Virus record (IMG/VR): IMGVR_UViG_3300022074_000339
Coordinates: 1-25,543 of that record
Direction: 5' to 3' (one strand)
Origin: a virus
Length of the DNA: 25,543 bases
This document shows positions 9,625 to 24,534 of this stretch, piece after piece (the first letter of the stretch is position 1; each line of letters opens with the position of its first letter). Position numbers and translations under genes: made by a program. The notes under the pieces are model-generated. The model saw only the letters and a program-made list of their open reading frames with translations. It did not search any database and was not told the DNA's origin.

Positions 9625-10080
9625 TTAAAATGTGCTACATGCAGCTAAAACTCTTACATGGGCTGTTGTTCCTACAAACGCAACCCTATCAATCCCAGCT
9701 ATTTCAAATGTTGCCATTTCTCTCTGAGCAGCTGTTTGATCAGCCTCAGCAGCACCAGTATCTATAGCTGTTACAGTCATTGCTGTTCTAATTGACACAA
9801 CAGAATCATCAGATGGTGTCATTTCTGCTTTGGGCATTGTTTCTAGAGGAAACCATTTTCCAAAAGCGTGAGCATAGCCGTAAATAGTAACAGTTAAATT
9901 TGTACCAACATGTTTGTCTATCGCTAAAACGTGAAGGTATCTTTGACTTTCTGTGCTATATCCGTCCGATGATGCATCAAGCGAAGCAACAGCTACAACT
10001 TCTACTTCTTTTTCATGCTCACCTGCTATATTTTTCAGTTGCCTTGTTCTTCCAAAATTATTATATCTATGTGTTCCCAT
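9625..10080 (-). CDS. Putative virion structural protein, beta-rich
   Basis: This 151-residue protein is predicted to be mostly beta-strand with alternating hydrophobic residues (VEVVAVASLDA, LTVTIYGYAHA, VRVLAACSTF) and only one short helical part (about 108-125, AAEADQTAAQREM). No signal peptide or membrane segment is seen. It precedes the giant adhesin-like protein and fits a small head-decoration, tail-completion or baseplate protein; no family is recognised. The start is ATG behind AAGGAG, and a CTATTTACAG variant of the intergenic motif sits about 20 bases upstream, next to a weak hairpin with a T-run. Composition is ordinary for the window. Confidence 0.75.
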   Translation of the reverse strand: MGTHRYNNFGRTRQLKNIAGEHEKEVEVVAVASLDASSDGYSTESQRYLHVLAIDKHVGTNLTVTIYGYAHAFGKWFPLETMPKAEMTPSDDSVVSIRTAMTVTAIDTGAAEADQTAAQREMATFEIAGIDRVAFVGTTAHVRVLAACSTF

Positions 10081-10111: not shown

Positions 10112-10318
10112 CTATTTTCTTCGTTTTTTCTCTTCTTTTATTCTTCTACGAATTGCTCGCTCTTTAGCTCTTCGTCTTTTCTCCGAGGGCTTTGTGTAAT
10201 GTTGGCGATCTTTTATCTCATCAATGATCCCAAGTTTTTTACACTTCTTGATAAAACGCTTAACAACTCTATCAATATTGTCTTTTTTTCTTACTCTATA
10301 CGTATAATTATTCGCCAT
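10112..10318 (-). CDS. rpsU: Ribosomal protein bS21 homologue
   Basis: This 68-residue protein aligns over most of its length with bacterial bS21: the core NIDRVVKRFIKKCKKLGIID, then the HYTKPSEKRRRAKERAIRR segment that corresponds to FYEKPTTERKRAKASAVKR in Escherichia coli. The C-terminus is a run of Lys and Arg, as in bacterial bS21. bS21 sits on the small ribosomal subunit near the anti-Shine-Dalgarno end of 16S rRNA and supports initiation. Phage-encoded bS21 is known from marine phages, where it can replace the host protein in the ribosome. Here it lies in the late head-gene run, overlapping the previous gene by 11 bases, so it would be made together with virion proteins. Confidence 0.93.
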   Translation of the reverse strand: MANNYTYRVRKKDNIDRVVKRFIKKCKKLGIIDEIKDRQHYTKPSEKRRRAKERAIRRRIKEEKKRRK

Positions 10319-10727
10319 CTTTACCTGCCATTTTTTTCCATATTAATGAAGACTTGCCCATAAATGAAGAGATATCAACACCGGGGTCTTTTGGGTCAAC
10401 ATCAGATAAAGCACCCTTTCCTGATTCTTTTGTAGATGATGTTGGTGTTGTTCCTTCAAAAAGGTTGACTCCGTTATAAGCTTCACTACCAATTGCTTCC
10501 ATCATTTTTTTTCTTTTTTTAGATAATCTTGCTTTTGCTTGTTCATCAGTTTCATACTTAGGTTTTTGTTTTTTTGGGAATCTTTGTTTGGTTTCAACAA
10601 TTGGTTCTCCAACTCCTTTTACAACTTCACTTATAATTGAAGAAAGAGTGCCATCTTCAAAAATCACTTCTTTGATACACTCTTTTATTAATGGTTTTAA
10701 AATTTTCTTTAATTCTTGCTTATTCAT
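10308..10727 (-). CDS. Charged protein of unknown function next to the protease, tag-related N-terminus
   Basis: This 139-residue protein starts with MNKQELKKILKPLIKECIKEV, an amphipathic helix similar in character to the tags upstream but not the same, and contains IKE and IFE sites of the (L/I)-x-E type. A Lys/Arg-rich middle (about 50-78) is followed by a Thr/Ser/Gly-rich disordered-looking stretch and ends with a short hydrophobic-charged tail. In T4 the scaffold gene 22 follows the protease, but this protein is too short and too basic to be identified as gp22. A core, decoration or packaged protein is possible. It overlaps the protease stop by one base and the bS21 start by 11 bases. Confidence 0.75.
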   Translation of the reverse strand: MNKQELKKILKPLIKECIKEVIFEDGTLSSIISEVVKGVGEPIVETKQRFPKKQKPKYETDEQAKARLSKKRKKMMEAIGSEAYNGVNLFEGTTPTSSTKESGKGALSDVDPKDPGVDISSFMGKSSLIWKKMAGKDGE

Positions 10728-11356
10728 TAGTCCCTCAAGATCTTATTAAATAGATTGTCAATGTTGTTTTCTTTGCCTTCTGCAATTTTAAATTTAACTG
10801 CTCCTCTGTTTATACCTGACATATTGTTTTTTGGAAAGACATATGCGTTAGGCGTAGAGGGCTCTGCTACAATATCAAAGCAAATTAGCTGAAAGTCTTC
10901 TTCAACTATGGTATCTCCCATTGACTCTTTAACAGAACCAAGCCCGCGAGAAGAAATACCAAGCTTTACTCCAGCGTTGATTAAATCTTTAAGAATACGA
11001 CCAGAAGGAGTATCTAGCACTTTTATCTTACCCATCACATCTTTTCCCTCCCACCAACAATCTGTTATCATGTGGGAGACATTTTTAAGATTTATGACAG
11101 AATCATCGGGATGATCTAGTTCTCCTGTTGCTCTTCCATCAGAAACAACTTTTTTGTAATTTTCCATTTCTTTTTTAAGAACTTTCATTGGATAAACACG
11201 TCCATTACCATTTTTTTTATCTGCGGTTTGAATACGACCAACAAGATAGACAGCTCCCTCTTGGATTACCTCACGCTTTTGAGCTTCGCTCAAGCGATCA
11301 AGACAACGCCCATCGGGACATAATTCAAAAAATTCTGTTAATAATTGTTTACTCAT
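10727..11356 (-). CDS. Prohead maturation protease (T4 gp21-like serine protease)
   Basis: This 209-residue protein is predicted to cleave the scaffold and propeptides inside the prohead. The sequence has the GELDHP motif with H82 and the GISSRGLG motif with S135/S136, the His and Ser positions of the T4 gp21 family of phage maturation proteases; the following region with VEEDFQLICFDIVAEPS (about 151-167) is the usual beta part of the fold, and D161 may complete the active site. The length matches gp21 (212 residues). Start is ATG behind AAGGAG, with a stem-loop just upstream. In T4, gp21 cuts after (L/I)-x-E; sites of that type lie at the ends of most of the shared N-terminal tags in this window. 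Confidence 0.92.
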   Translation of the reverse strand: MSKQLLTEFFELCPDGRCLDRLSEAQKREVIQEGAVYLVGRIQTADKKNGNGRVYPMKVLKKEMENYKKVVSDGRATGELDHPDDSVINLKNVSHMITDCWWEGKDVMGKIKVLDTPSGRILKDLINAGVKLGISSRGLGSVKESMGDTIVEEDFQLICFDIVAEPSTPNAYVFPKNNMSGINRGAVKFKIAEGKENNIDNLFNKILRD

Positions 11357-12441: not shown

Positions 12442-13236
12442 TTATTTGATCTCCGATAATAATTGTTGAATGTTAAATACATCTTTAACCACTTCTTCGT
12501 TTAAAGGTTTGTTTTTAAAATCTTCAAGCTTTTCTTTAACTAGTTTTATTTTATCAGACCATTTGCCTTCACTTAAATTTTCGCATTGTTCTTTTAATCT
12601 TCCAATCTCCTCGTTCATGAACATTTTTAGTTGAAGTCCATTGTCAGAAAATGACGTGATATAATTGGTCAACAATTCTCTTTGTTCTTTTAATAATGAC
12701 TCTTTGTATGTATCATTAAATTTATTAACAAAAGTACTATAAGTAAGACTATCTACTGTCTTTAATTTTTGTTCTTTAACCGCTTGAGGATGCGAAATAA
12801 CAAGTGTCTTAAGTCTTTGCTCTATCAACAAACGTGTCTTTGCTTTAAGGCCATCAGAATTGAAATACTGGCCAACGGTTGCAATTGATTTATAATTGGG
12901 AATAAAGTTTCCAAATGCCTCTGGAAGATTCCGATTGAATTCTTTGATCAATTGTGTTTGTTGGTTAAAAATTTCTTTTCTGTCTAAAGAATCCCAGTCT
13001 TCTTTTACTTCTTTCATATAACGAAGCCCAAGAGCTTCCTCAAGCTTTTGAGGTTCCATTAGTTGTTTGTACAATTGTAGATCGTTGTAAAGAGGTTTTC
13101 CTTTTGAGAAGTATCTTTTAAGTGTCTCAACAATTTGTTGTTTCTTTTGAAGCTCTCCTCTTACAATAGCCTTTGTCATTTCTTTGATAAGGCACTCGTA
13201 AAGAAAAGCGGTATTTCTTTTCTTATTATGTTTCAT
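12442..13236 (-). CDS. Helical protein of unknown function, possible prohead core component
   Basis: This 264-residue protein is predicted to be almost entirely alpha-helical, rich in Lys, Glu, Leu and Gln, with no Cys pair, Walker box or membrane span. Its start overlaps the end of the portal gene by 11 bases. In T4 the genes between portal and protease (67 and 68) encode prohead core proteins, and the helical, charged make-up here would suit a scaffold or core role; sequence similarity to those proteins cannot be claimed. It could instead be a head-completion or tail-joining factor. Its stop is directly followed by the ATG of the next gene (TAAATG), so the two are co-translated. Confidence 0.78.
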   Translation of the reverse strand: MKHNKKRNTAFLYECLIKEMTKAIVRGELQKKQQIVETLKRYFSKGKPLYNDLQLYKQLMEPQKLEEALGLRYMKEVKEDWDSLDRKEIFNQQTQLIKEFNRNLPEAFGNFIPNYKSIATVGQYFNSDGLKAKTRLLIEQRLKTLVISHPQAVKEQKLKTVDSLTYSTFVNKFNDTYKESLLKEQRELLTNYITSFSDNGLQLKMFMNEEIGRLKEQCENLSEGKWSDKIKLVKEKLEDFKNKPLNEEVVKDVFNIQQLLSEIK

Positions 13237-15220
13237 CGATTGGTTCCTTTTTATTTAATGATTCGATAAGTATCTCAACTTCGCGAGATACTGTTTCTAA
13301 TTTTTGTTCTTCTTCTAGATAGCCACCGGCTGCATTTGAGACAGAATATTCGTTTCCAACATAGCCTTTGTAAATGTTTCGACCTGTGGATCTTGCTGCT
13401 TCAATCCCTGTAGATCCGAGCATAGATTTCTTCATGCCGCCTTTATCATACGAAGATTGATGCGATTTGTATGGACCACGCTCTCGCACGTCTGGATTGT
13501 TGAATCCAACTTTCCTAGGAATATCAACATACGAAGGTGAATCATCACGTTTCGCAGAGGGTTCGGCGAGCAGATCAGTGTCACCCCCTTGGTCGCCGCC
13601 GACATCTCCTCCGCCGGTGTTACCACCGCCAGTATCCCCGGTAGGAGTATCTCCACCAAGGTTACCCAAATCTCCTAATCCACCTCCACCTGTGTCTGTA
13701 CCAGTATCTCCGCCACCGCCAAGATCTCCTAGACCACCGGCAAGGCCTCCTCCCTCAGCACCTTCGCCACCAGCTGCGGCAGCTTCAAGTTTTGCAGTAA
13801 ACTTTTTATCAAAGAACATTTCTCTTTGGTTACGAAGAAATTCTCCTTCATCCATACCAAACATGTTTTCAGCTATCCAGCGTTTTGAGAAATACCCTTC
13901 CGTTGCATTTGAAGCAACTTGGAACTTCTTGTCCCAATGTTCTAATTCTTGTAACTCAGCAATCTTTGAGGGGTTGTTTAATTGTAGCTTAAATGTTAAC
14001 AAATCATCATTTCTATATCCTAATGTATAAAGATGAATAATTCCAATCTTTTCCAACTCAGCTATTGCTACTCTCTGAAGTCTTTGTATAGTTCTTGCAA
14101 AGCGTATATCTTTCTGTGCTAATGTAGTTTTGTCTTCAGAAGCACCTTCTCCCATTGTTAAATAAGATTGTGGAATTTTAAGAGCTGCAAACAGCTTATC
14201 TCTCAAATATTTTACATCATCGATACCTCCGTTGTAGGAGGCACCAGGTAGACTTGTGATATCAGTAGAAGACTGTCCTCCGCGAATCGGGATGTAGTAA
14301 TCTTCCTCAATAGATAAAGGATTATAACGTAAGTCAACTCGTCCTGTCTGAGGATCGACAACAGAGTGTCTTTTCAGTTGGGTCATAACTTTTTGCATAT
14401 ATTGTTCAACTTCTTGTGGAGGTATGCCACCAACGTCTATTTTGAACAAACGACGTTCTGGTGCACGAACAATTCTATATGCCATCATAGCATCTTCTAA
14501 TAGTATAAGTTGGCGGTGAATGCGCCTACAAGCTTCAAGAACTGATGTTCCGTAAGGAGCATGTTTATCATTACCAAGGATTCTGAAGTGAGCAACTTGC
14601 CAATTCTCCAGAGTTAGTCCCGCTGTATTCCACTGGTACTGAACGTAATTTGGATTACTTTGGTCCTCTCCCTCGAGGCGCTCGATCTCTCTAGTCGGTA
14701 AACCAATAGCAGATCGAATTCCCATATCTTCGTCAATGTCAAGATATAAGAAAAAATCACCGTACTTACACATTGTTCGAGCCCAGCCAAAAAGGTTATG
14801 CTCAATGTTTAAAACATTATGATATAAATTATGAAGGATATGTTTTATTTCTTCGTTTGCACATTTAATATTAAGCATTGGACGAAGTGCAGTATGAGTT
14901 GTCATCTCATCGGCATAAATATCTAAGGAAGATGCTATCTCTGGCATATATTCCATTTCGTCAAAATCAACATAGCGCTCAGCCCTGTTTCTGTTGGATA
15001 TCATATTCAACGTAACAGAGTTTATAGGATTATATTCCCATTTTTTAAATTGTGCTCCTGTTGCTGATTTGAATCTTGTTGCATAGTTGTCTAGTTGTCT
15101 TCTTCGCAACATACGACCTGTTTGAGTCCTTCGTTGTGTTATAGGACCGGACAACAATTTTGTTAAAGCCTTGAATAAATCTGATTGGGGATTATAAGGC
15201 GACTTTTTATATTTTGGCAT
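13226..15220 (-). CDS. Portal protein (T4 gp20-like) with Gly/Asp-rich C-terminal extension
   Basis: This 664-residue protein is predicted to form the dodecameric ring at the head vertex through which DNA passes and to which the tail attaches. Residues from about 60 to 470 match the gp20-like pattern: the INSVTLNMISNRNRAERYVDFDEMEYMPEIASSLDI region typical of T4-type portals (shown here as 65-101), then W146ARTMCKYGDFFLYL, RAPERRLFKIDVG (252-264) and the crown helices. The order of terminase then portal follows the T4 block, without sheath and tube genes between. Residues 481-549 are almost only Gly, Asp, Thr, Leu and Ala, followed by about 115 ordered-looking residues, so the chain exceeds T4 gp20 (524 residues) mainly through this tail. 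The ATG follows AAAGGA. Confidence 0.93.
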   Translation of the reverse strand: MPKYKKSPYNPQSDLFKALTKLLSGPITQRRTQTGRMLRRRQLDNYATRFKSATGAQFKKWEYNPINSVTLNMISNRNRAERYVDFDEMEYMPEIASSLDIYADEMTTHTALRPMLNIKCANEEIKHILHNLYHNVLNIEHNLFGWARTMCKYGDFFLYLDIDEDMGIRSAIGLPTREIERLEGEDQSNPNYVQYQWNTAGLTLENWQVAHFRILGNDKHAPYGTSVLEACRRIHRQLILLEDAMMAYRIVRAPERRLFKIDVGGIPPQEVEQYMQKVMTQLKRHSVVDPQTGRVDLRYNPLSIEEDYYIPIRGGQSSTDITSLPGASYNGGIDDVKYLRDKLFAALKIPQSYLTMGEGASEDKTTLAQKDIRFARTIQRLQRVAIAELEKIGIIHLYTLGYRNDDLLTFKLQLNNPSKIAELQELEHWDKKFQVASNATEGYFSKRWIAENMFGMDEGEFLRNQREMFFDKKFTAKLEAAAAGGEGAEGGGLAGGLGDLGGGGDTGTDTGGGGLGDLGNLGGDTPTGDTGGGNTGGGDVGGDQGGDTDLLAEPSAKRDDSPSYVDIPRKVGFNNPDVRERGPYKSHQSSYDKGGMKKSMLGSTGIEAARSTGRNIYKGYVGNEYSVSNAAGGYLEEEQKLETVSREVEILIESLNKKEPIDET

Positions 15221-15279: not shown

Positions 15280-16866
15280 CTAACCCTTGAAAATCCAAGC
15301 AAAATCTTTATAAGTTTTTTGAAAGTCTTCAAGACTTTCTTGAGTCTTTGTACCTGTAAATCCTCTCATTCCTTTTATAGAAGTATTCATAGTAGTAGTA
15401 GAAGACTTAATTGAGGTAATCATAGCTTCTTGATACATTCTATCTTTTTCTGACACTTCTAAGGCTGTATCTCTTACCCAACAAGCAATAGCAAGTGACA
15501 TTATTAGATCATCATGATATGACCTCATCGCTTGAGGCTTACCATTGTTCCATATAAAAGTTTTTACTTCATGAAATAGCCGAGAAGATTTTGGTTTCAC
15601 CAACTTATTTCTTATATATTCTTCAAGTTTTGCTACAATTAAGGGTCTTGTTTTCATGGAGGTGGTAAAGCCAATAACAGCTCTGTCATTATATTCTCCT
15701 TCTAAAGAATCAACATATTCGTGTGTTGATTTGATTGAATAGTAAAGATTTGGATAACCAAGATCTCTTACTTTCTCACAAGCCGCAATACCGATACCAA
15801 CATTTTCAATCACCATAAGACAATTTCCATACTCTTTACCTGCATCTATCAATATCTTAGCAAAGTGATCCATTGTTGGTTTGCCTTGATATTCAGCAAC
15901 AATATCCATTGTGTCTGTTCTAAGTACATGAAATACAGACGAATCAGCACCATCTCCTCTTGCAACGTCAGCTACTATGAGATATGGAACTCCTTCTTGA
16001 TATTTTTCCCAAATCCACATATTTCTATCCCACCCTGTTTTATACTCAGGTTCTTGCTGTTGTTCAAATAACCAATGTATATCATCAGGATGTATTACAG
16101 TTTCACCGGAAGTATTAAAGTTACATTCAAGTTCTTGAGCTATTTGCCTTCTAGACATATTTTTTGTTTCTTTTTCGAACCAAGCTTGGTCACGTTCAGG
16201 GTGAACATCCCACGGTAGAGATACATGGTGGAACTCATTGTCTCCACTCTCAGCATCTATATAAGTTCTATGAAACCAGTTTCCAACACCCATAGGAGTT
16301 GACAAAGCAATACAGCGACCCCCTGTCGATAGAGTAGGGTAAAGACCTGCCCACAGATCATCAAGTCCATCAACGTGTGCTGCCTCGTCTATAATCAATA
16401 AAGATAGTGCTTCTGAACGACCAGCGTCTGCTGATGTTCCAACAGCCTTTATGGATGACCCATTTGATAATTCAAAAGAAGTTCTATTATCAATTGTTAT
16501 AGTAGCAACCTGCATCCACTTTGGTAAGTTTTTCATTACCATTTTTACTTTCTTTACCAAGTTGGCGGCTGTTCCAAACTTGGTTGCCATTACAAGTATG
16601 TTCTTTTCTTTGTGGAACAGCATAAACCAAACAGCATAGGCAGCTGATATAGTTGAAATACCTAGCTGTCTTGCTTTAAGAATAACAGTGAAACGATAAT
16701 CATTGAAGTCTTTAACCAAGTCATCTTGGTAAGGATAGGTGTTAAAAGGAATTAAACCCTTAAGAGGGTGAGAGATCCTACAATAATTATTTATAAAGTA
16801 TAATGGATCCTTCCCGCTTTTAAGGATTTCTTTTATTATGTCTTGCTTTGATAATTTTAGAGACAC
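15280..16866 (-). CDS. Terminase large subunit (T4 gp17-like ATPase/nuclease)
   Basis: This 528-residue protein is the motor that pumps DNA into the prohead and cuts it to length. The N-terminal ATPase has a Walker A-like KARQLGIST (64-72, compare SRQLGKTT in T4 gp17), Walker B LLIIDEA with D160 and catalytic E161, and the coupling motif ALSTP (187-191). The C-terminal RNase H-type nuclease has D300 in IVADVARGDG, E354 in VIENVG and the D452-D453 pair in SYHDDLIM, the expected three acidic positions. T4 gp17 is somewhat longer (610 residues). The start is GTG preceded by AGGA, six bases after the previous stop. The conventional lysine of the Walker A box is replaced by Ile-Ser, with the Arg-Gln pair typical of gp17-like enzymes kept. 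Confidence 0.95.
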   Translation of the reverse strand: MSLKLSKQDIIKEILKSGKDPLYFINNYCRISHPLKGLIPFNTYPYQDDLVKDFNDYRFTVILKARQLGISTISAAYAVWFMLFHKEKNILVMATKFGTAANLVKKVKMVMKNLPKWMQVATITIDNRTSFELSNGSSIKAVGTSADAGRSEALSLLIIDEAAHVDGLDDLWAGLYPTLSTGGRCIALSTPMGVGNWFHRTYIDAESGDNEFHHVSLPWDVHPERDQAWFEKETKNMSRRQIAQELECNFNTSGETVIHPDDIHWLFEQQQEPEYKTGWDRNMWIWEKYQEGVPYLIVADVARGDGADSSVFHVLRTDTMDIVAEYQGKPTMDHFAKILIDAGKEYGNCLMVIENVGIGIAACEKVRDLGYPNLYYSIKSTHEYVDSLEGEYNDRAVIGFTTSMKTRPLIVAKLEEYIRNKLVKPKSSRLFHEVKTFIWNNGKPQAMRSYHDDLIMSLAIACWVRDTALEVSEKDRMYQEAMITSIKSSTTTMNTSIKGMRGFTGTKTQESLEDFQKTYKDFAWIFKG

Positions 16867-16872
16867 ACTATC

Positions 16873-17175
16873 CTACATATTGTTATTCATTCCGTCTTCG
16901 TAACCCAAAGAAGAAAGCAAGCTTATAGCTGCTTCTTCTTGAACCATAGCAGATAATCTTTTCAATTCTTCTGGTTGATCAATAACGTCAAGTATCATCT
17001 CCAATTCCTCTTTCAATCTTGAACCAGGGGAACCCATAATAGATCCACCAGCATCTGGTATTTCACCCATTGCTCCTTGTATTCTTTGCATAGGTGTGAT
17101 TTCTTCCATCTCTGTTATAACATTCTCAAGTTCTTCCTTGATAATTTGTTTTAATTGCTTATTTGATAATTTCAT
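16873..17175 (-). CDS. Small unknown protein with the shared N-terminal tag, just before the terminase
   Basis: This 100-residue protein begins with MKLSNKQLKQIIKEELE and continues NVITE, which contains an I-T-E site of the T4 prohead-protease type. The remaining part has a Gly-rich hinge (PDAGGSIMGSPGS) and an acidic helix (about residues 52-90) ending in NNNM. It is not recognised. The gene ends six bases before the GTG start of the large terminase, so the two are made together. A small terminase subunit is possible by position and size but no DNA-binding motif is visible; a packaged head protein is the other option, suggested by the tag. Confidence 0.72.
   Translation of the reverse strand: MKLSNKQLKQIIKEELENVITEMEEITPMQRIQGAMGEIPDAGGSIMGSPGSRLKEELEMILDVIDQPEELKRLSAMVQEEAAISLLSSLGYEDGMNNNM
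17110..17175 (-). other. N-terminal tag, copy 5
   Basis: Residues 1-22 of the 100-residue protein: MKLSNKQLKQIIKEELE followed by NVITE. Candidate sites are IKE and ITE. Confidence 0.65.
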
Positions 17176-17726
17176 TTTTGATTCGCTCCTTTTTTGCGTG
17201 TATCATTTTGTGGACGCTTATCGGAAAATTGTTGTAAAAACTTTCTTGTTACATCTCTCGTTGCATCTATTGATGGTTCAAGAATCGGCATCGCCTCAAT
17301 ACCACCTATTTTAAAATGTTGTTGGGCCTCAACAAAAGAGCGAACTCTTGACGTTGATTGTACAAGAATATTAGGCTCTGACTTTGCAGTGAGTGATACT
17401 GATTTTCCTGTTACTTTTCTGTATTCTTTTTGCAAAAACTTTTTAATGTCATTCAACATCGATTCAATATCTTGTTCAAAGTTTCTTCCGTAAACTTCTT
17501 TCAGCATTACTTCGCCATGATAAGAAAGGATCATTGAGTCTGCATAGAAACGAACTTTAAATCCATCCATGACTCGTTTATCCATCAAAGCACAACCTTC
17601 CTCTCTTTTTAAACCCACTGAACGTTCTTCACCATCATAAGAAAATCTTTTATCATGAGCTCCGTCGTAAGTGTTTGCGGCTGCTTGAGCAAGCCCTTGT
17701 ATAATTTCTAATGTTGTATTACTCAT
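17172..17726 (-). CDS. Unknown conserved-type phage protein
   Basis: This 184-residue soluble protein shows no recognised family. The first half seems to be mixed alpha-beta (MSNTTLEIIQGLAQAAANT, then KRFSYDGEERSVGL and a beta segment GFKVRFYADSMILSYHG), followed by a helix rich in Lys and Glu (about 85-105) and a basic, Gln-rich C-terminus. No helix-turn-helix, metal site or membrane span is visible. It sits two genes upstream of the large terminase, where a small terminase subunit might be expected, but nothing in the sequence supports that beyond position. Start and stop both overlap neighbouring genes, the latter as ATGA. Confidence 0.72.
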   Translation of the reverse strand: MSNTTLEIIQGLAQAAANTYDGAHDKRFSYDGEERSVGLKREEGCALMDKRVMDGFKVRFYADSMILSYHGEVMLKEVYGRNFEQDIESMLNDIKKFLQKEYRKVTGKSVSLTAKSEPNILVQSTSRVRSFVEAQQHFKIGGIEAMPILEPSIDATRDVTRKFLQQFSDKRPQNDTRKKGANQK

Positions 17727-18093
17727 TTGGTCTCCATCCTTTTAGCCATCGTTCTTCACGTCCCTCAATCCATTGAATATAACATTTTTCACAACAATCA
17801 AATTTTGCCATATAAACATCATCTCTTGACTTAAATGAATAAGTATCACAAACAGGACAAGAACGCTTAGATTCTTTCGTAATTAGTTTCTCTGTGATAA
17901 AAACGCCACCAACATCTACTTGATGATCATCTTTTTCGTTTGAAGTTTTGTAGAGATCTTTTAATTGTTTTACGTATTCTCTCTCTTTTTCGTCGGTCCA
18001 GAAGGACTTTGGGTTTTGAATCGCTTCTTCACCATATTTTTCTGCTATGGCTTTTTCTACTTTAACAACATAGTTTGGGTCTTTATTTTTCAT
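17719..18093 (-). CDS. Zinc-ribbon protein of unknown function
   Basis: The start chosen is ATG at 18093, giving 124 residues (MKNKDPNYVV...), because AGGAG lies five bases upstream; a longer reading from 18132 has no such site. The N-terminal half is a charged helical region with a Trp-containing segment (SFWTDEKER). The C-terminal half has two cysteine pairs, CPVC and CCEKC, about 20 residues apart, which look like a four-cysteine zinc ribbon, then a basic Trp-rich tail. Proteins of this type often bind nucleic acid or a protein partner. It overlaps the exonuclease gene by 11 bases and the next gene by eight, so co-expression is likely. No specific family is recognised. Confidence 0.75.
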   Translation of the reverse strand: MKNKDPNYVVKVEKAIAEKYGEEAIQNPKSFWTDEKEREYVKQLKDLYKTSNEKDDHQVDVGGVFITEKLITKESKRSCPVCDTYSFKSRDDVYMAKFDCCEKCYIQWIEGREERWLKGWRPNE

Positions 18094-19147
18094 CAATACT
18101 CCTAGTTTTTTTAATTGCTGAGCTAATATCAATAGGGTCTTGTATATCTTTTGTTCCTAATTCTTTTTGTGCTCTCGATACATTGATATTTTTTGACAGA
18201 TTTCTTATCTTTTCATTAGTTATAATAAGTTCTTTGACCTCTGCATACATATTAAAAAATGCAGTTATCAATTGTCTTGTATCATCAATAGCTGTATGTA
18301 GCTGAATATAGTCTGGTCCTGGTCCGTATACATCCATCATTCTCTGTAGTTTACCGTTAAAAGCCATGACTTTTTGCATTTCACCTTTTATTTCTTTTTC
18401 TTTTTCATCAAAGAAACGAGACATTCTTGTATCTCCTTGTTCCATTTGATACTGTGCTATTTGTTTTAAAACTTGTCTTTGAAAATTAACTGTGTCAAAT
18501 ATGTCAATTTTTTCAAAATTACTTGTATCAATACCAAGAGCTTTTCCTTGATTAATTATTTTATTTCTATCGAACGATTTTATATTGTGCCCTACAGAAA
18601 CAACATTCGGACCTAGATCCTTAACCCAAGCAAGAAACTCTTCCATAGCTTCATACTCATCTCTATCATCTTCTCTTGTTTGATAGTTGGTATAACCAAT
18701 CATATCAGCAACTGTATAAGGTCTTCCTTCTTCTTTCTCTTTTTGTGCCTTTAATAAAAAGTCAACTTCTTTTGTAACCTGTCCGGTGGCTTCATATTCA
18801 TCAAAAAAATATTCGGCTCTTTTAAGTATACTTTGTTGCATAATGTGTTTTTCTAATGTTTCTTGGTTTAAAGCAACATTGACATCAAACTCAGCAATCG
18901 GTTGTTCGGGAACGGGTCCGTCGATATCATCAATCTTAAATGCTATAGCTCCATATTGAGTTATTTGTCCGTCAAAACCTATGCTTTCTAAATCCCAGAA
19001 AAACCAAGTCTTTCCATTTAGTTCTTGTCTCATATACTTAAGAACATCACCGGGAGTCATGTCTCTTAGTAAAGACAGATCTTCATCTAAGAATTTCTCT
19101 AACTCTTCTTTTATTATTCTCATAACATCTTGTTTTGATATTGGCAT
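18083..19147 (-). CDS. DEDDh 3'-5' exonuclease (DnaQ/ExoI-like) with tag-like N-terminus
   Basis: This 354-residue protein has an RNase H-fold exonuclease core. Motif I is FFWDLES with D52 and E54, motif II is GHNIKSFD with D193, and motif III is LHTAIDD with H284 and D289, the H-x4-D spacing of the DEDDh group. Such enzymes remove nucleotides from 3' ends; T4 itself uses exonucleases DexA and gp43 proofreading, and this protein is not fused to a polymerase. The substrate, DNA or RNA, cannot be told. Residues 1-22 (MPISKQDVMRIIKEELEKFLDE) match the shared tag loosely and end in the protease-like site LDE. The last third is helical. The gene is coupled to both neighbours by overlaps. Confidence 0.85.
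   Translation of the reverse strand: MPISKQDVMRIIKEELEKFLDEDLSLLRDMTPGDVLKYMRQELNGKTWFFWDLESIGFDGQITQYGAIAFKIDDIDGPVPEQPIAEFDVNVALNQETLEKHIMQQSILKRAEYFFDEYEATGQVTKEVDFLLKAQKEKEEGRPYTVADMIGYTNYQTREDDRDEYEAMEEFLAWVKDLGPNVVSVGHNIKSFDRNKIINQGKALGIDTSNFEKIDIFDTVNFQRQVLKQIAQYQMEQGDTRMSRFFDEKEKEIKGEMQKVMAFNGKLQRMMDVYGPGPDYIQLHTAIDDTRQLITAFFNMYAEVKELIITNEKIRNLSKNINVSRAQKELGTKDIQDPIDISSAIKKTRSIDEK
19082..19147 (-). other. N-terminal tag, copy 4 (diverged)
   Basis: Residues 1-22 of the exonuclease: MPISKQDVMRIIKEELE followed by KFLDE. The IIKEELE part is exact and an LDE site follows; the first ten residues differ. Confidence 0.5.
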
Positions 19148-19536
19148 TAGTTCACCGCATTTGCTATAGCTATTGTAAATCCTATACCACTAATTAGTCC
19201 AAAAGAAAACCAAAACTTCTTTTTTGGTGGAGTTTTTAATTCTTCTAAACCTTCTATTCTTGTTTCCAAAGCTTGGACTTTTGCTTCAAGTGTTCCTCTG
19301 TCGAGTTTATTTTGAGACTTAAGTTTGTTTATTTCTTGTTCTTTCTCTGCTAAAGCAATACCAACCTTATAATCAAGTTCGATAAGGCACCTGTCTGTTG
19401 CGTTTGCAACTTGGTCTGCTAATAATTGTGATGCTGTATCATTGAATAAACGACCAGAGAATGGAGCTTCCATTCCTCTTTCAAGATAGGTATATTCTGG
19501 TACATCTGCAAATGCTAAAGACAGAAGCAAAATCAT
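19147..19536 (-). CDS. Signal-peptide protein with coiled coil and C-terminal membrane anchor
   Basis: This 129-residue protein begins with a short hydrophobic leader MILLLSLAFA followed by DVPEY, which fits signal peptidase cleavage after A-F-A. The mature part holds a conserved-looking segment (YLERGMEAPFSGRLFND), two Asn/Gln-rich helices, a coiled coil (about residues 65-100) and a C-terminal hydrophobic span (about 109-126). Export plus a C-terminal anchor suggests a periplasmic protein tethered to the inner membrane, as in a spanin-type or envelope-disrupting role. The start lies one base after the previous stop. Its stop overlaps the next start as TAATG. The lysis link is inferred from topology and neighbours. 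Confidence 0.72.
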   Translation of the reverse strand: MILLLSLAFADVPEYTYLERGMEAPFSGRLFNDTASQLLADQVANATDRCLIELDYKVGIALAEKEQEINKLKSQNKLDRGTLEAKVQALETRIEGLEELKTPPKKKFWFSFGLISGIGFTIAIANAVN

Positions 19537-19537
19537 T

Positions 19538-19996
19538 TTAGTTTTTTTCCATATAAGCTTTTAGTGCTTCATGGTAATTATCATAATTTACAAAACCACC
19601 TTGACCACCACCGCCACCAGGATAATTACGTGGTAATAAATAACTAACCACATATTGTTGTCGGCGCGGACTCCAATTGAGATTCATCTGTATTCCGTCG
19701 TTAGTAACTTTGTGTTTAAAAGTATGGACTTTGCTTTTGTCAAAGATTGGCAAGATAAGATCCTCTTCGGTGCGACTTGCATCAATAGGAATATCTATTG
19801 GCTCATCTAAAGCCCCTGCCAGGTCCTTGGCTTGCTCTCGCCCTTCTGGGTCCATATACATATTTCTAAGCTTGTCTTCATATTCTGGATAATTCTTTTC
19901 ACTACGAGAATCAAACTCAGCAGGTCTATAGGCTTCAAGAACCTTGTTAAGTTCTTCTTTAATAATTTGTTTTAATTGTTTATTAGTTAATTTCAT
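19538..19996 (-). CDS. Unknown soluble protein with the shared N-terminal tag
   Basis: This 152-residue protein begins MKLTNKQLKQIIKEEL, identical in the first 16 residues to the consensus tag of this window. After the tag come a charged acidic stretch rich in Glu, Asp and Tyr, then a predicted beta-rich part (about residues 80-125), a Gly run (GGGGGQGG) and a short C-terminal helix (YHEALKAYMEKN). No catalytic motif is recognised. The gene lies inside the small-gene run between the spanin-like and the signal-peptide proteins. The tag links it to the other four tagged proteins; its own role is unknown. Confidence 0.75.
   Translation of the reverse strand: MKLTNKQLKQIIKEELNKVLEAYRPAEFDSRSEKNYPEYEDKLRNMYMDPEGREQAKDLAGALDEPIDIPIDASRTEEDLILPIFDKSKVHTFKHKVTNDGIQMNLNWSPRRQQYVVSYLLPRNYPGGGGGQGGFVNYDNYHEALKAYMEKN
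19931..19996 (-). other. N-terminal tag, copy 3
   Basis: Residues 1-22 of the 152-residue protein: MKLTNKQLKQIIKEELN followed by KVLEA. The IKE site is kept; there is no second (L/I)-x-E site. Confidence 0.65.
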
Positions 19997-20328
19997 GATT
20001 TTTTTATTCCTATGTTTTCGAACACATTGTCAGGATCAGCTTTTTTTTCTTCTAACTTTTCTAATCTTTTTTCCTTCTCAGCTTCTAAGGCAATCATTAC
20101 AGCTTTTGCTTTTTCTTCTGCTCTCTTGTCTCTACCTTGTTTTGCTTTTTGTAAACGCTCAAGTTCTTCGTTGTCCTTCTTGTATTGATCTTTGGCTAAA
20201 TTAGCCATTTCTAAATAGTTCTGATTTGAACGTTTTCCAAGCACATAAGACAAAATAAACAAACACATAAGAATCAACCAATTCTTGTGAGCTACAATCC
20301 AATTCTTTGTTTTAGATAACCAAATCAT
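19993..20328 (-). CDS. Single-span membrane protein with charged coiled coil, spanin-like candidate
   Basis: The chosen start is the ATG three bases after the previous stop (TAATCATG), giving 111 residues; a GTG 21 bases upstream would add seven residues but overlaps the preceding gene. Residues near the N-terminus form one hydrophobic span (WLILMCLFILSYVLG), followed by a long Lys/Glu-rich helix of coiled-coil type to about residue 95. This is the layout of an inner-membrane spanin (Rz/Rz1 type), which helps disrupt the outer envelope at lysis, but many phage proteins share it. The previous gene is the holin-like candidate. Function is inferred. Confidence 0.7.
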   Translation of the reverse strand: MIWLSKTKNWIVAHKNWLILMCLFILSYVLGKRSNQNYLEMANLAKDQYKKDNEELERLQKAKQGRDKRAEEKAKAVMIALEAEKEKRLEKLEEKKADPDNVFENIGIKKS

Positions 20329-20330
20329 GA

Positions 20331-20606
20331 TTAACCACCATGTCGCCACATTTTGGCGAAGTCAACAGCAGTTTGACCTCCTATGTACATCATAGCAATC
20401 ATTCCCCAAGTTTCAGGGTCTAGTTGTGCGTTCCATAACAAAGCCGTTGCTGATACAAACACAAGTAACTTACGAGAGATTGCTTTCTCTTGCAAGGCAT
20501 CAAGGATACCCTTCTGTTTATTGTCAAGATACAGTTCTTTTTTTAGTTTGTCTTTTTGTTCTTGTTCCATTTTTTCTCCTGCTTTTAAAAATTCTTCTCT
20601 AGTCAT
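20331..20606 (-). CDS. Small membrane protein, holin-like candidate
   Basis: This 91-residue protein has a charged, Lys/Glu-rich N-terminal half followed by two closely spaced hydrophobic stretches (about residues 47-61 and 66-80) separated by a short polar turn (QLDPET), and it ends in a basic tail (MWRHGG). Small size, two membrane segments and charged ends are compatible with a holin, which would open the inner membrane at lysis. It is followed directly by a single-span coiled-coil protein and, one gene later, by a signal-peptide protein. No endolysin is visible nearby, so the lysis role is inferred from topology alone. Confidence 0.7.
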   Translation of the reverse strand: MTREEFLKAGEKMEQEQKDKLKKELYLDNKQKGILDALQEKAISRKLLVFVSATALLWNAQLDPETWGMIAMMYIGGQTAVDFAKMWRHGG

Positions 20607-21004
20607 TATTGTCTACTCTTTTTTTCCATCATTGGATCATCAATTTTTACAGATTGCATACCTTGACCCATTCTTCTAGTACTAGCTCTCCTTCTCATAG
20701 AAAGATCAGTATCTTGTGCAACTACTTTTTGAAAGGCATCACTAAGAGCTTGGTTGTAATCATTCATAGTGTAACTGCTGATGTCAAACTCAACTACTTG
20801 ACCATCTCTTCCTTTGATTCTTATTTTTTGAGGTTGTTCACTTGGGTTCGCTGCTAGTCCCATATCACGAAGACCATCTATTAATTGTTTTTGAAGTGGT
20901 TCTTGACTGTGCATATAAGTTTTAAAAGGCCCTGCCATTTCTGACATAGCAACCTCTAACTCTTCTTTGATAATTTTTTTTAGTTGCTTTTTAGTTAATT
21001 TCAT
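20606..21004 (-). CDS. Unknown protein with the shared N-terminal tag
   Basis: This 132-residue protein is not recognised. It opens with MKLTKKQLKKIIKEELE, the same tag as four other proteins here; its second glutamate site reads AMSE, a poorer match to the (L/I)-x-E cleavage rule. The remainder is soluble and basic towards the C-terminus, with a run of charged and Met-rich residues (RRRASTRRMGQGMQ). Its stop overlaps the ATG of the following membrane-protein gene as TAATG, so the two are translationally coupled. No function is proposed beyond possible co-packaging with the head. Confidence 0.75.
   Translation of the reverse strand: MKLTKKQLKKIIKEELEVAMSEMAGPFKTYMHSQEPLQKQLIDGLRDMGLAANPSEQPQKIRIKGRDGQVVEFDISSYTMNDYNQALSDAFQKVVAQDTDLSMRRRASTRRMGQGMQSVKIDDPMMEKKSRQ
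20939..21004 (-). other. N-terminal tag, copy 2
   Basis: Residues 1-22 of the 132-residue protein: MKLTKKQLKKIIKEELE followed by VAMSE. The IKE site is kept; the second is MSE. Confidence 0.65.
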
Positions 21005-21024
21005 TTTTTATTCTCCATAAGACT

Positions 21025-21058
21025 AAAGCCTAGATAGCTTTTACACTAAATAGGCTTT
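21025..21058 (-). repeat. Inverted repeat after SbcCD
   Basis: Two perfect 8-base arms (AAAGCCTA and TAGGCTTT on the minus strand) flank an 18-base loop in the gap between the SbcCD stop and the next gene. The loop side carries CTATTTAGT, a variant of the intergenic motif. No strong T-run follows, so a terminator is uncertain; RNA processing or a weak terminator are both possible. Confidence 0.4.
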
Positions 21059-21068
21059 TAATATAGAT

Positions 21069-24000
21069 TTAGCAGTTTACTTTTGCATAACCACCGACTT
21101 TTTGTATATCAATTGTTTTGTCAACACAATCTTTTAAAACATCAAGATGAGAGATTAACAACACGGTTTTAAACTTATCTTTTATCATATCTATTAATCT
21201 TACAAAACCTTCCATATGCTCTTGATCTAACGCCGTAGCAGGTTCATCCATTATGAATATGGTAGATTTAGGTAAGTTGGTTATTTCAATTAAGGCAAGC
21301 CGGATTGCCATAGCTGCTATAGTCTTCTCTGCACCTGATCCCATTGAGATTGGGCGAGAATTGTACTTGGGATGTTTTATGTTTATGTCCAAATTTCGAC
21401 CATCTTCTTCAAACATAACTTCAAAATCAACAATGTTTGCAAGACACTTTTGGATCTCCTCATTGATAAGAGATAGTTTTTGCTTGATAATCTCATAGGC
21501 TATACCATTAGGGTGCATGCAACGCATAAACAACTCATAGGCAATAAATGATTCTTCTAGTGCATCTTGTTCTCGCTTTTCAACATGAAGCCTTTTGATG
21601 GTACTCTTTACTGCTCCAAGCTCAACAAGATAATCTTGTATCTTTTTATCACATTTTTCTTTTCTTTGTTTAGCCTCAGACATTTTTGTCTTAACTGCAT
21701 TCTTTGATTTTATAAGAGAAGAAAGGTTTTCTATAGCTTGTCGATTGATATTGTACTCATCTCTTTGTTGTTCAAGAGAAGTTTTTTGGTTACCCATCAA
21801 AGATATTTTAGACACAAGGGACTCATTAGTTATCTCTAAATTCTTATTAATAGAAACAAATTTATCTCTCTTCGCTATATTATTATCTAATGTTTGCAAC
21901 TCTTTTTCAGCAGAATCTTTATCAAGGCCAAATATTTTAAGTTCCCAACCATCAATAATTTTTTCTACTTCCTCGATCTCTTCTTCAAGTGTTGGAAGAT
22001 AGTTTTTTGCTTTTGTGGCGTCTTTGACAAACTTGTTGTCACAACAGTATTTACAGTCAGGATCATACTCATGATCGTGAAGCATATTGATCTTTTTGTG
22101 TGTTTGTTTTTCTTTGTTTTTTAGGGCCCTGAGTTCCTGTCTAGAAGCTGTTAGAGATTCTTCAAACTCCTTACACTGCTCTAAGATTTGCGTTAACCTA
22201 TGCTTGTTTATGGAGCTTGCAATATCGTCTGCTTGTTCAATAGCAAGTTGATTTTGTTTTATTTCTTGTTTGTTCTCAGAAACTTTAACACCAGCTTTGT
22301 GTATGTTAATATCAAGGCGATCAATCTCGTCTTCTAACTCGTCTATATCAATAATAGTTTGAGGGATAGAGTTTATTTCTTCTTCTATTTTTACAAACTC
22401 TTCAAGCAATTCTTCATAGCGATGATTATGTTTTTTACACAAATCAGTTTGTCGATCTATATCATCATTAATTTCTTCTATCTCTTCTTGTTTTGCAACA
22501 AGCAATTCAGTGATCTTTTTGCTTTTGAATCTTTTTATCAAAGTGGATATTTCTGATGAGTCTTTCTTTGCAAAATTTAACTTTTGCTCAAAAATATCAA
22601 GATCAAGAAATTTAGCTAATTTGTTCTTTCTTTTTGTTGACCCTTCTTTAATAAAAGCAAGGGAGTCTAACTGTGAAGCCATTGAAGTAATCATAAAGTC
22701 TTCAATATTGCCAAAGATCTTTCTTATGTTTGCTTCTGTATCTTTTACAGAGTCACCATTACAAGAACTATTGGTAGTGAGATTGTGGAAATCAAGATCA
22801 CCAGAGGCCACAGGGACGGACTTTCCTTTGACGGTCTTAAAAGATTTATTAAGATTCCGAGTGATTTGGTAATTTTGACCGTCTGCCTCGACCACCATCT
22901 TGATAGTGGCTTTAGCTTTATTTTGATTGACGAGATAAACGTTCTTCTTCTCGGCTTTGCTGGTTCCGCCATAAATGCCATAAAGAGCAGAATCAATAAC
23001 AGAAGACTTCCCACTGTAGTTCTTGCCAAAAATGCCAACAGTCCCAACAAGATTTGCAAAGTCCAAAGAATTGTCTTGTCCATAATTAAAAAGATTTGAA
23101 AACTCCATCTCTTTAATATTCCATTTGACGTTTCTTCTGACCTCTTCAACTTTCTCGACCTCTTTATTGTATTTAGTATTTAAATCTAACACTTGACTCA
23201 TCAAGTCCTCATTTAGTTCATAATCTTCTAAATATTCTCGAATATACCTTTCTTGAACGGAAACATCACGCATGTTTTCTATTTTATGCTCTTGACCATC
23301 CGAGGATGTAAAATTAGACGTTCCTTTGTTTAAAAAGGACAATGACACCGGATTGTATTTAGAACGTGCTAAATCAGTAATCTTGCGGATAGAAGAGCTA
23401 TCCATATTTACAGTTGAGATCATACGTAATCTACACCCATGTGGTATGTGATAATGTTCTGGAATCTGTCCTTTATTATCAAGTTTGACTGTTATAAATG
23501 GACGTGGGTTTGTAAAGGTAATATGTTGACAGCTGAAGTCGTCACCAGATTTGATTGTCCATAGCTTATAACCTTTTCTTCCATCTTCTGAGAAGTTTTG
23601 CTGAATTGTTGATCCGGCATATTGTACCCGCCCTTCTGTGTCAAGAATCTGTGGTTTATGAATATCCCCTAGCATAACATATTGATGGTCTTTAAAGATA
23701 TTTATATCGTCATCTCCGTGTTCCATAGCCCAACCTGATCCTGTTGTGGATCCCATAATTGCGCCGTGATAAAGAGCAATATTTATATCACCAGTTTTTG
23801 GTCTCATCCAAGCGTCTCTATCAAAGATAGACAAAACATTGAATGATAAACCAGACTGAGGTGACACACGTCCAGAGTTTTTTAACAGATGTAACTGTGG
23901 ATGATTCAGGGCGTTGACTATTGGTGAAATTGCGTCTTCCCTATCAGAGTTCTTAAGATTACCATCGTGATTTCCAAGAATGATATAGGTAGGTGCAATG

Positions 24001-24209
24001 TCTGCTAGGTTCTTTAAAAATTCAGAAGCCAAAGCAAAATATTCTGGTGACAACTGTGTCTTTGTGTGGGCCAAGTCACCGCAATGAACAATATAGTCAG
24101 GCTTTTGACTTAGCAATTTTTTATATATCTGATTGAACACAAATCTGTATTCATCATGAAATTTAAGATTACGAATATGTGTATCCGCAAAGTGTGCGAT
24201 CTTAATCAT
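21069..24209 (-). CDS. Single-chain SbcD-SbcC (Mre11-Rad50; T4 gp47-gp46) fusion nuclease
   Basis: This 1046-residue protein joins both halves of the recombination nuclease in one chain. Residues 1-350 are the SbcD/Mre11 phosphoesterase: D9-x-H11, GD45LAH48, GN80H81D82, H148 and GD182IH184 supply the metal ligands. Residues 361-1046 are SbcC/Rad50: Walker A GKNYSGKSS (395-403), a long coiled coil (about 560-890) with a zinc hook C719-K-Y-C722, a signature-like GSGAEK (957-962), Walker B IFIMDEP with D988 and E989, and the H-loop H1021. T4 encodes these as separate genes 47 and 46, which process DNA ends for recombination-dependent replication. Here no stop or frame change separates them. The signature GSGAEK departs slightly from the usual SGGE form. 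The gene has its own consensus promoter. The function is firm; the fusion is the unusual part. Confidence 0.93.
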   Translation of the reverse strand: MIKIAHFADTHIRNLKFHDEYRFVFNQIYKKLLSQKPDYIVHCGDLAHTKTQLSPEYFALASEFLKNLADIAPTYIILGNHDGNLKNSDREDAISPIVNALNHPQLHLLKNSGRVSPQSGLSFNVLSIFDRDAWMRPKTGDINIALYHGAIMGSTTGSGWAMEHGDDDINIFKDHQYVMLGDIHKPQILDTEGRVQYAGSTIQQNFSEDGRKGYKLWTIKSGDDFSCQHITFTNPRPFITVKLDNKGQIPEHYHIPHGCRLRMISTVNMDSSSIRKITDLARSKYNPVSLSFLNKGTSNFTSSDGQEHKIENMRDVSVQERYIREYLEDYELNEDLMSQVLDLNTKYNKEVEKVEEVRRNVKWNIKEMEFSNLFNYGQDNSLDFANLVGTVGIFGKNYSGKSSVIDSALYGIYGGTSKAEKKNVYLVNQNKAKATIKMVVEADGQNYQITRNLNKSFKTVKGKSVPVASGDLDFHNLTTNSSCNGDSVKDTEANIRKIFGNIEDFMITSMASQLDSLAFIKEGSTKRKNKLAKFLDLDIFEQKLNFAKKDSSEISTLIKRFKSKKITELLVAKQEEIEEINDDIDRQTDLCKKHNHRYEELLEEFVKIEEEINSIPQTIIDIDELEDEIDRLDINIHKAGVKVSENKQEIKQNQLAIEQADDIASSINKHRLTQILEQCKEFEESLTASRQELRALKNKEKQTHKKINMLHDHEYDPDCKYCCDNKFVKDATKAKNYLPTLEEEIEEVEKIIDGWELKIFGLDKDSAEKELQTLDNNIAKRDKFVSINKNLEITNESLVSKISLMGNQKTSLEQQRDEYNINRQAIENLSSLIKSKNAVKTKMSEAKQRKEKCDKKIQDYLVELGAVKSTIKRLHVEKREQDALEESFIAYELFMRCMHPNGIAYEIIKQKLSLINEEIQKCLANIVDFEVMFEEDGRNLDINIKHPKYNSRPISMGSGAEKTIAAMAIRLALIEITNLPKSTIFIMDEPATALDQEHMEGFVRLIDMIKDKFKTVLLISHLDVLKDCVDKTIDIQKVGGYAKVNC

Positions 24210-24238
24210 AAATCCTCCGTAATTAATTAAGTATGTTT

Positions 24239-24267
24239 ATTATAACACATTACGAAAGCTTTGTCAA
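24239..24267 (-). promoter_or_regulatory. Consensus sigma70-type promoter for the SbcCD fusion
   Basis: On the minus strand a perfect -35 box TTGACA (plus-strand core 24262-24267) is followed after 17 bases by a perfect -10 box TATAAT (24239-24244). The start codon lies about 30 bases downstream, behind a CGGAGG ribosome site. The exact consensus and ideal spacing point to strong use of the unmodified host polymerase, as expected for an early gene. Confidence 0.85.
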
Positions 24268-24273
24268 GTCAAT

Positions 24274-24534
24274 TTATAATTTTTTAATACGTTCACCTAT
24301 TTGATAAGCCTTAGATGACAAAGCTTGGTACATATCACCACCAGCCTCAGACATACCTAGTTGCAACCAATCTACTTGTTTCATCATTTGGATCTGCTGT
24401 GGGTTCAATTCTTCAGCTTTAATTTTACCACTAAGTAGCATATTTATTAATTCATCAGAACTCATTTGCTCAGATATTAAAGCTTCAAGTTCTTCTTTGA
24501 TTATTTGTTTCAATTGTGTGTTTGTTAACTTCAT
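24274..24534 (-). CDS. Small unknown protein with the shared N-terminal tag
   Basis: This 86-residue protein is not recognised from any family. Its first 16 residues, MKLTNTQLKQIIKEEL, belong to the motif shared by five proteins in this window; the segment ends in LISE, which fits the (L/I)-x-E cleavage rule of T4-type prohead proteases. The rest is polar and helical with many Gln and Met and no membrane segment. The start is ATG with a clear AGGAG site. The gene sits alone between the primase and the SbcCD promoter. A role as a small packaged or scaffold-associated protein is inferred only from the tag. Confidence 0.75.
   Translation of the reverse strand: MKLTNTQLKQIIKEELEALISEQMSSDELINMLLSGKIKAEELNPQQIQMMKQVDWLQLGMSEAGGDMYQALSSKAYQIGERIKKL
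24469..24534 (-). other. N-terminal tag, copy 1
   Basis: Residues 1-22 of the 86-residue protein: MKLTNTQLKQIIKEELE followed by ALISE. Candidate protease sites are IKE and ISE. Confidence 0.65.

Follow-up and report, generated by a model that had tools for sequence, protein, structure and literature searches.

Five unrelated proteins encoded in the IMG/VR contig analysed here, a stretch of 25,543 bases from a T4-like phage that is known only through environmental DNA and has an S77 protease, a T4 portal protein and a large terminase (the whole stretch is called the window below), begin with copies of one segment of 22 residues, which we call tag A. It is highly probable, in our judgment, that tag A is a capsid-targeting sequence (CTS) that brings otherwise unrelated proteins into the head of a T4-like phage and is probably removed by the S77 protease inside the prohead. 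Phage T4 works on this principle: its internal proteins are diverse and have only the CTS conserved (PMC3012670), which attaches to the core and is taken off by gp21 (PMC7411985). How would such a tag act in the phage studied here? Initially, it would bind the prohead core during assembly and carry the proteins behind it, presumably including those of the window, into the head. The S77 protease would then cut after a hydrophobic-x-E site, at I-K-E in positions 12-14 of the tag, at L-x-E around positions 20-22, or at both, and the freed proteins would stay with the DNA and probably be injected into the host, as are the T4 internal proteins and Alt.

The five open reading frames (ORFs) that the first-pass annotation had placed on the minus strand were all recovered at their positions:

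24274-24534, minus strand: tagged protein of 86 residues, tag A at 24469-24534 (MKLTNTQLKQIIKEELEALISE); no match in Pfam or PHROG.
20606-21004, minus strand: tagged protein of 132 residues, tag A at 20939-21004 (MKLTKKQLKKIIKEELEVAMSE); a search of IMG/VR gave no relatives.
19538-19996, minus strand: tagged protein of 152 residues, tag A at 19931-19996 (MKLTNKQLKQIIKEELNKVLEA); relatives of its body (L050, L054) are likewise tagged.
18083-19147, minus strand: exonuclease-like protein with a weak RNase_T match and a diverged tag at 19082-19147 (MPISKQDVMRIIKEELEKFLDE); its AlphaFold2 model is poor (mean predicted local distance difference test score 45).
16873-17175, minus strand: tagged protein of 100 residues, tag A at 17110-17175 (MKLSNKQLKQIIKEELENVITE); its gene is the one immediately upstream of the terminase, and relatives of its body (L258-L260) carry the tag too.

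Four of these proteins share the start MKL[TS]xxQLKxIIKEEL and the exonuclease carries a diverged copy, as had been claimed, and the bodies behind the tags are mutually unrelated by BLASTP. I-K-E is present in every copy; positions 20-22 read ISE, MSE, ITE and LDE in four of them, and the fifth has VLE one residue earlier. A profile that includes these copies matches them with E-values of 1e-7 to 2e-11. The DNA of the first four tags is also alike, as noted earlier, and forms one repeat family of 82 nucleotides with 67-79% identity. Is it then the DNA or the peptide that is conserved? Over the first 16 codons, pairs of copies differ by three to six synonymous and one to three non-synonymous codon differences, and in the 40 nucleotides upstream of the tagged genes only 9-19 positions match between pairs. 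These codon-by-codon synonymous differences, together with the unlike upstream DNA, identify the peptide, not a DNA signal, as the conserved object, and purifying selection acts on the amino acids of the tag. A regulatory DNA repeat is ruled out on the same grounds. Chance or low complexity is also ruled out, by the profile E-values and by 120 pattern matches in viral contigs against none in the genomes of GTDB. An amphipathic-helix moment was weakly above that of shuffled sequences (p 0.03-0.21 for the five tags) and is not used as evidence.

The motif search of phage genomes that the first-pass annotation had proposed was run with a degenerate DNA pattern (M-K-L at the start, Q-L-K at 7-9 and I-I-K-E-E/D at 11-15), and both unrelated bodies and co-occurrence with a gp21-type protease were found. 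The 120 matches came from IMG/VR, and none was found in 84,980 bacterial and archaeal species genomes of GTDB. Together with the five window proteins, the hits represent 98 distinct bodies, which fall into 89 clusters; five Pfam families are found among these 98 proteins, nearly all of which are of unknown function. The consensus, MKLTKxQLKQIIKEELexvLxE, is conserved to about residue 22, where the body starts. When an iterated profile of the tag was run on eleven long tag-bearing records, the window and two cultured relatives, 118 matches lay at start codons versus 5 at internal positions. Long tag-bearing records have 5-21 tagged proteins each, which are scattered throughout the genomes and often stand in tandem, as in the first 10 kb of G002 with about twenty genes. 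A search of cultured phages with the bare tag (tblastn) gave no match, perhaps owing to filtering and the short length of the tag.

The link to the prohead begins with two adjacent genes of the window:

10727-11356, minus strand: S77 prohead protease, gp21 type (Peptidase_S77, PF03420, E=3.4e-32; PHROG 207, head maturation protease, E=1e-58).
10308-10727, minus strand: charged protein of 139 residues beside the protease, with a tag-like N-terminus at 10656-10727 (MNKQELKKILKPLIKECIKEVIFE).

The gp21-type protease that had been assigned to the first of them is thus established; it scores 112 bits against the Peptidase_S77 model, for which the family cut-off is 27, and it is likely the enzyme that removes the tag. 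An S77 protease was found in 23 of 32 long tag-bearing records, including all 11 of those of at least 159 kb. In the nine records without it the T4 portal is also absent, except for one with a portal fragment at the contig edge, and the five of them that were looked at over their whole length are pieces of genomes from the same group of phages. For a control, contigs were chosen by a ThyX (thymidylate synthase) motif, regardless of tag or protease, which gave 19 records of at least 79 kb; tags were present in six of the nine with S77 versus none of the ten without it (P=0.003), so that the predicted restriction of the tag to genomes with an S77 protease held. Shared ancestry of these phages accounts for part of this association. 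The 139-residue protein, for which a related helix had been noted, indeed starts with a tag-like sequence ending in a hydrophobic-x-E site. Its family stands beside the protease in most relatives, with an N-terminus like LKPLIKECIKEVLxE, and the tag profile gives 22 bits for the proteins that occupy its place in G002 and G004. Genes with tag A adjoin the protease gene in G007, G016, G037 and G055.

Tag A contains the (L/I)-x-E cleavage motif expected of a T4-type CTS. Among the profile-set tags, 98 of 113 (87%) have [LIVM]xE ending at position 14. Positions 20-22, which were not in the search pattern, read [LIVM]xE in 47 of the 89 pattern-set tags, and 17 more have it one residue earlier; most other offsets give about 2-7%. 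Seven relatives of the exonuclease, 74-80% identical and with starts such as MKITKQDIKRIIKEELEKVLDE (several have the canonical MKIT start), retain I-K-E at 12-14; L20 and E22 do not vary among them, whereas residue 21 can be D, M, N, F or T. A site of this type also occurs in the major capsid protein: in each of the 12 genomes compared, namely ten relatives and both cultured phages, its N-terminal segment finishes with [LIV]xE and the next residue is A (LLREA, LLKEA, VLREA, IVSEA, LISEA).

Do proteins with such N-termini reach the virion? Published proteomics of cyanophages bears on this question. The virion protein table of S-CREM2 (PMC10665884) was searched for the motif [FYL]xxF[LIMF]xE within the first residues. 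A T4-CTS-like N-terminus was found on five proteins, all five of which are in the virion, versus none of the 165 undetected genes (Fisher P=6e-4), a P value that is optimistic because the motif was written after viewing the N-termini of detected and undetected proteins, guided by the T4 sequence. The five (in the S-CREM2 record OR473000) are an S-adenosylmethionine hydrolase (MKDFDSFLEE), an APH-like kinase (VKRFDAFLTE), a cytidylyltransferase (MKNFSSFLTE) and two hypothetical proteins; targeting goes unmentioned in the S-CREM2 paper (PMC10665884). The result was replicated in S-SM1: over the 80 kb examined, a single protein matches the motif, the T4-GC190 cytidylyltransferase (MKKFSAFLNE), which has been reported from the virion by Sullivan et al. 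(PMC3037559). Separately, a Cas9-like protein detected in the S-CREM2 virion has a similar segment, RFASFMAE, at residues 18-25.

Bodies are shared as well: the bodies of three S-CREM2 virion proteins recur in tagged proteins, and for two of the three the tag is tag A. The virion protein ORF160 has a module in common with the tag-A proteins L061 (E=2e-23), L037 and L077, and this module is also found in G011 at 111509, in a protein that starts with MKLLLENWKKYINEG instead of tag A. ORF137, another virion protein, ends in DUF6321, a domain found behind tags in G011 (E=8e-13), and relatives of the virion protein ORF156 in tag-bearing phages start with segments of the type W-x-x-[FY]-[LI]-x-E. 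In phage C48C1, MKKFKQYIDE precedes a body that in G006 and others follows tag A (E=3e-43). The sequence-level predictions that could be tested all held: restriction to S77 phages, unrelated bodies, a hydrophobic-x-E site at a fixed distance, the N-terminus of the protease neighbour, bodies in common with cyanophage virion proteins, and, in S-CREM2, the prediction of virion content by a T4-CTS-like tag.

Some points weigh against a cleaved head-targeting tag. The virion data come from relatives, not from phages with tag A, and it is from those relatives that we infer function; cleavage is predicted from the motif. The invariance of I-K-E in the pattern set is not evidence because it was built into the search pattern. 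Clustering of tagged genes near the S77 gene is marginal (12 observed versus 7.2 expected, P=0.047). A T4-type late promoter was found before 1 of 108 tagged genes versus 112 of 2514 other genes, which is uninformative, the motif being rare in these genomes generally. Finally, nearly half of the pattern set (47%) lacks [LIVM]xE exactly at 20-22. This last point would favour a tag that targets the prohead but stays on as a permanent core-binding helix, its hydrophobic-x-E sites being fortuitous. We consider this unlikely, since L20 and E22 are invariant in the exonuclease family with the residue between them free, a pattern that a protease site would show, the major capsid protein of all relatives has a site of this type, and T4 CTSs are cut by a homologous protease (PMC7411985).

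Could the tag instead be an address or docking helix for a target outside the head? A replication compartment, the host membrane or a partner protein common to all of them would be examples. The tagged genes of the window lie among replication genes (primase, an SbcCD fusion, exonuclease) as well as beside the terminase gene, and the scatter of profile-matched tags throughout the genomes would also suit such a role; however, the restriction to S77 phages, the tag-like N-terminus beside the protease, the bodies shared with cyanophage virion proteins and the hydrophobic-x-E site all speak against it, and it seems to us slightly less likely still than the permanent helix. That the tag is a repeated gene start carrying a promoter, ribosome-binding or translation-initiation signal, the likeness of the proteins being a by-product, would fit the similarity of four copies as DNA but can be practically dismissed, as it is already contradicted by the excess of synonymous over amino-acid differences and by the unlike upstream DNA, and in-frame internal tags in G014 have no start codon at their first position.

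Returning to capsid targeting, the genomes with tag A also contain a second, more T4-like segment, tag B (MKLLFENWR[KQS][FY][LI]xE), with 52 N-terminal matches versus one internal match. It stands on about 50 proteins with different bodies in G008, G011, G003, G005, G006, G007, G014 and G017 (L114-L143, L163-L171, L181-L189, L194-L211), which include NUDIX hydrolases, a cytidylyltransferase-like protein, a 5'-nucleotidase, a nucleotidyltransferase and unknowns. The generic motif [FWY]xx[FY][LIM]xE is enriched 7.6-fold in the first 24 residues (P=3e-19). In G008 two tag-B genes lie between the protease gene and that of the 139-residue protein, and a weaker match is found there in G003. By inspection, tags A and B, the cyanophage tag and the T4 CTS all appear to fit the pattern hydrophobic-x-x-hydrophobic-[LI]-x-E.

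Several ORFs, in G014, G011, G008, G005 and G006, have more than one in-frame tag. The ORF at 157074-158885 of G014 (L201:17074-18885) has 604 codons and four in-frame tags, and polyproteins are suggested there because the three internal ones lack a start codon at the tag. Further single ORFs with two to four tags are the following:

L129:9445-10884 (G011): multi-tag single ORF.
L119:12379-13230 (G008): multi-tag single ORF.

It is a real possibility, though less likely than not, that these phages possess a large cargo-loading system in which two head tags, perhaps for different binding sites, mark as many as some 20 rapidly changing proteins in a genome, and that part of these are multi-tag polyproteins that would be cut apart in the head by the protease. 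As a separate observation, one tagged protein of G011 (112514-113191; L129:12514-13191) has a tag-like segment at its C-terminus too (ITKADLKKVIREELEAFLDD). Likewise, two adjacent proteins of phage immuto (117631-118931; L112), just upstream of the terminase, have the N-terminus FxL[KR]xFLxENKLTxNxxxLKE in common, possibly a third tag.

The remaining head genes of the window agree with its T4-like nature:

13226-15220, minus strand: T4-type portal protein, gp20 (PF07230, E=3.4e-77).
15280-16866, minus strand: terminase large subunit.

By the terminase, the closest cultured phages are Flavobacterium phage immuto and Microcystis phage Mel-JY01. The protease and charged-protein genes are followed by genes for structural-looking proteins, both small and large (4951-9615 and 9625-10080), as they are in the relatives G044, G034, G036 and G048; no capsid gene was found within the 25,543 bases of the window.

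How does tag A compare with known systems? Like the T4 CTS of IPI, IPII, IPIII and Alt, it is a short N-terminal segment with a hydrophobic-x-E site, stands on unrelated proteins and belongs to a phage that has an S77 protease, and the core hydrophobic-x-x-hydrophobic-[LI]-x-E is common to both (YQEFIAE in T4, LKQIIKE in tag A). By inspection this core pattern is all that MKTYQEFIAE has in common with tag A, and it is too short to prove descent. Unlike the T4 CTS, tag A has a different sequence, 22 versus about 10 residues and often a second hydrophobic-x-E site; there are 5-21 tagged proteins per record versus four in T4, some ORFs have several in-frame tags, and tag A is known from sequence alone. 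The cyanophage segments of S-CREM2 and S-SM1, recognised here from the published proteomics, are on enzymes and hypothetical proteins that were detected in the virions of marine T4-like phages, and read MKxFxxFLxE versus MK[LI]TxxQLKxIIKEEL in tag A. In phage P1, a signal within the first 30 residues of DarB carries a foreign protein into the head (PMC9024508), but, unlike the case of tag A, no common consensus was found among the Dar proteins (PMC9024508). In SPN3US the prohead protease gp245 removes N-terminal head propeptides at a motif like that of T4 gp21 (PMC7411985); in the described cases these are about 111-130 residues long and cut after AxE, and they are not a short shared tag. The tags found here follow the principle of the T4 CTS but differ from it in sequence, in how many proteins they mark, in that two of them are used and possibly in the polyproteins. 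Our search of the literature available to us did not find an earlier description of these tags.

If this interpretation is true, the head-loaded and probably injected proteins of a large, uncultivated group of aquatic T4-like phages can be read from sequence alone. T4 proteins of this kind include an inhibitor of host restriction (PMC3012670), and because of this, and because the bodies behind tag A are nearly all of unknown function, candidate injected effectors and anti-defence proteins could be listed directly by means of the tag. The presence of enzymes in cyanophage virions may be explained by this rule too; among them are the cytidylyltransferases/NMNATs that the S-CREM2 paper gives without a packaging signal.

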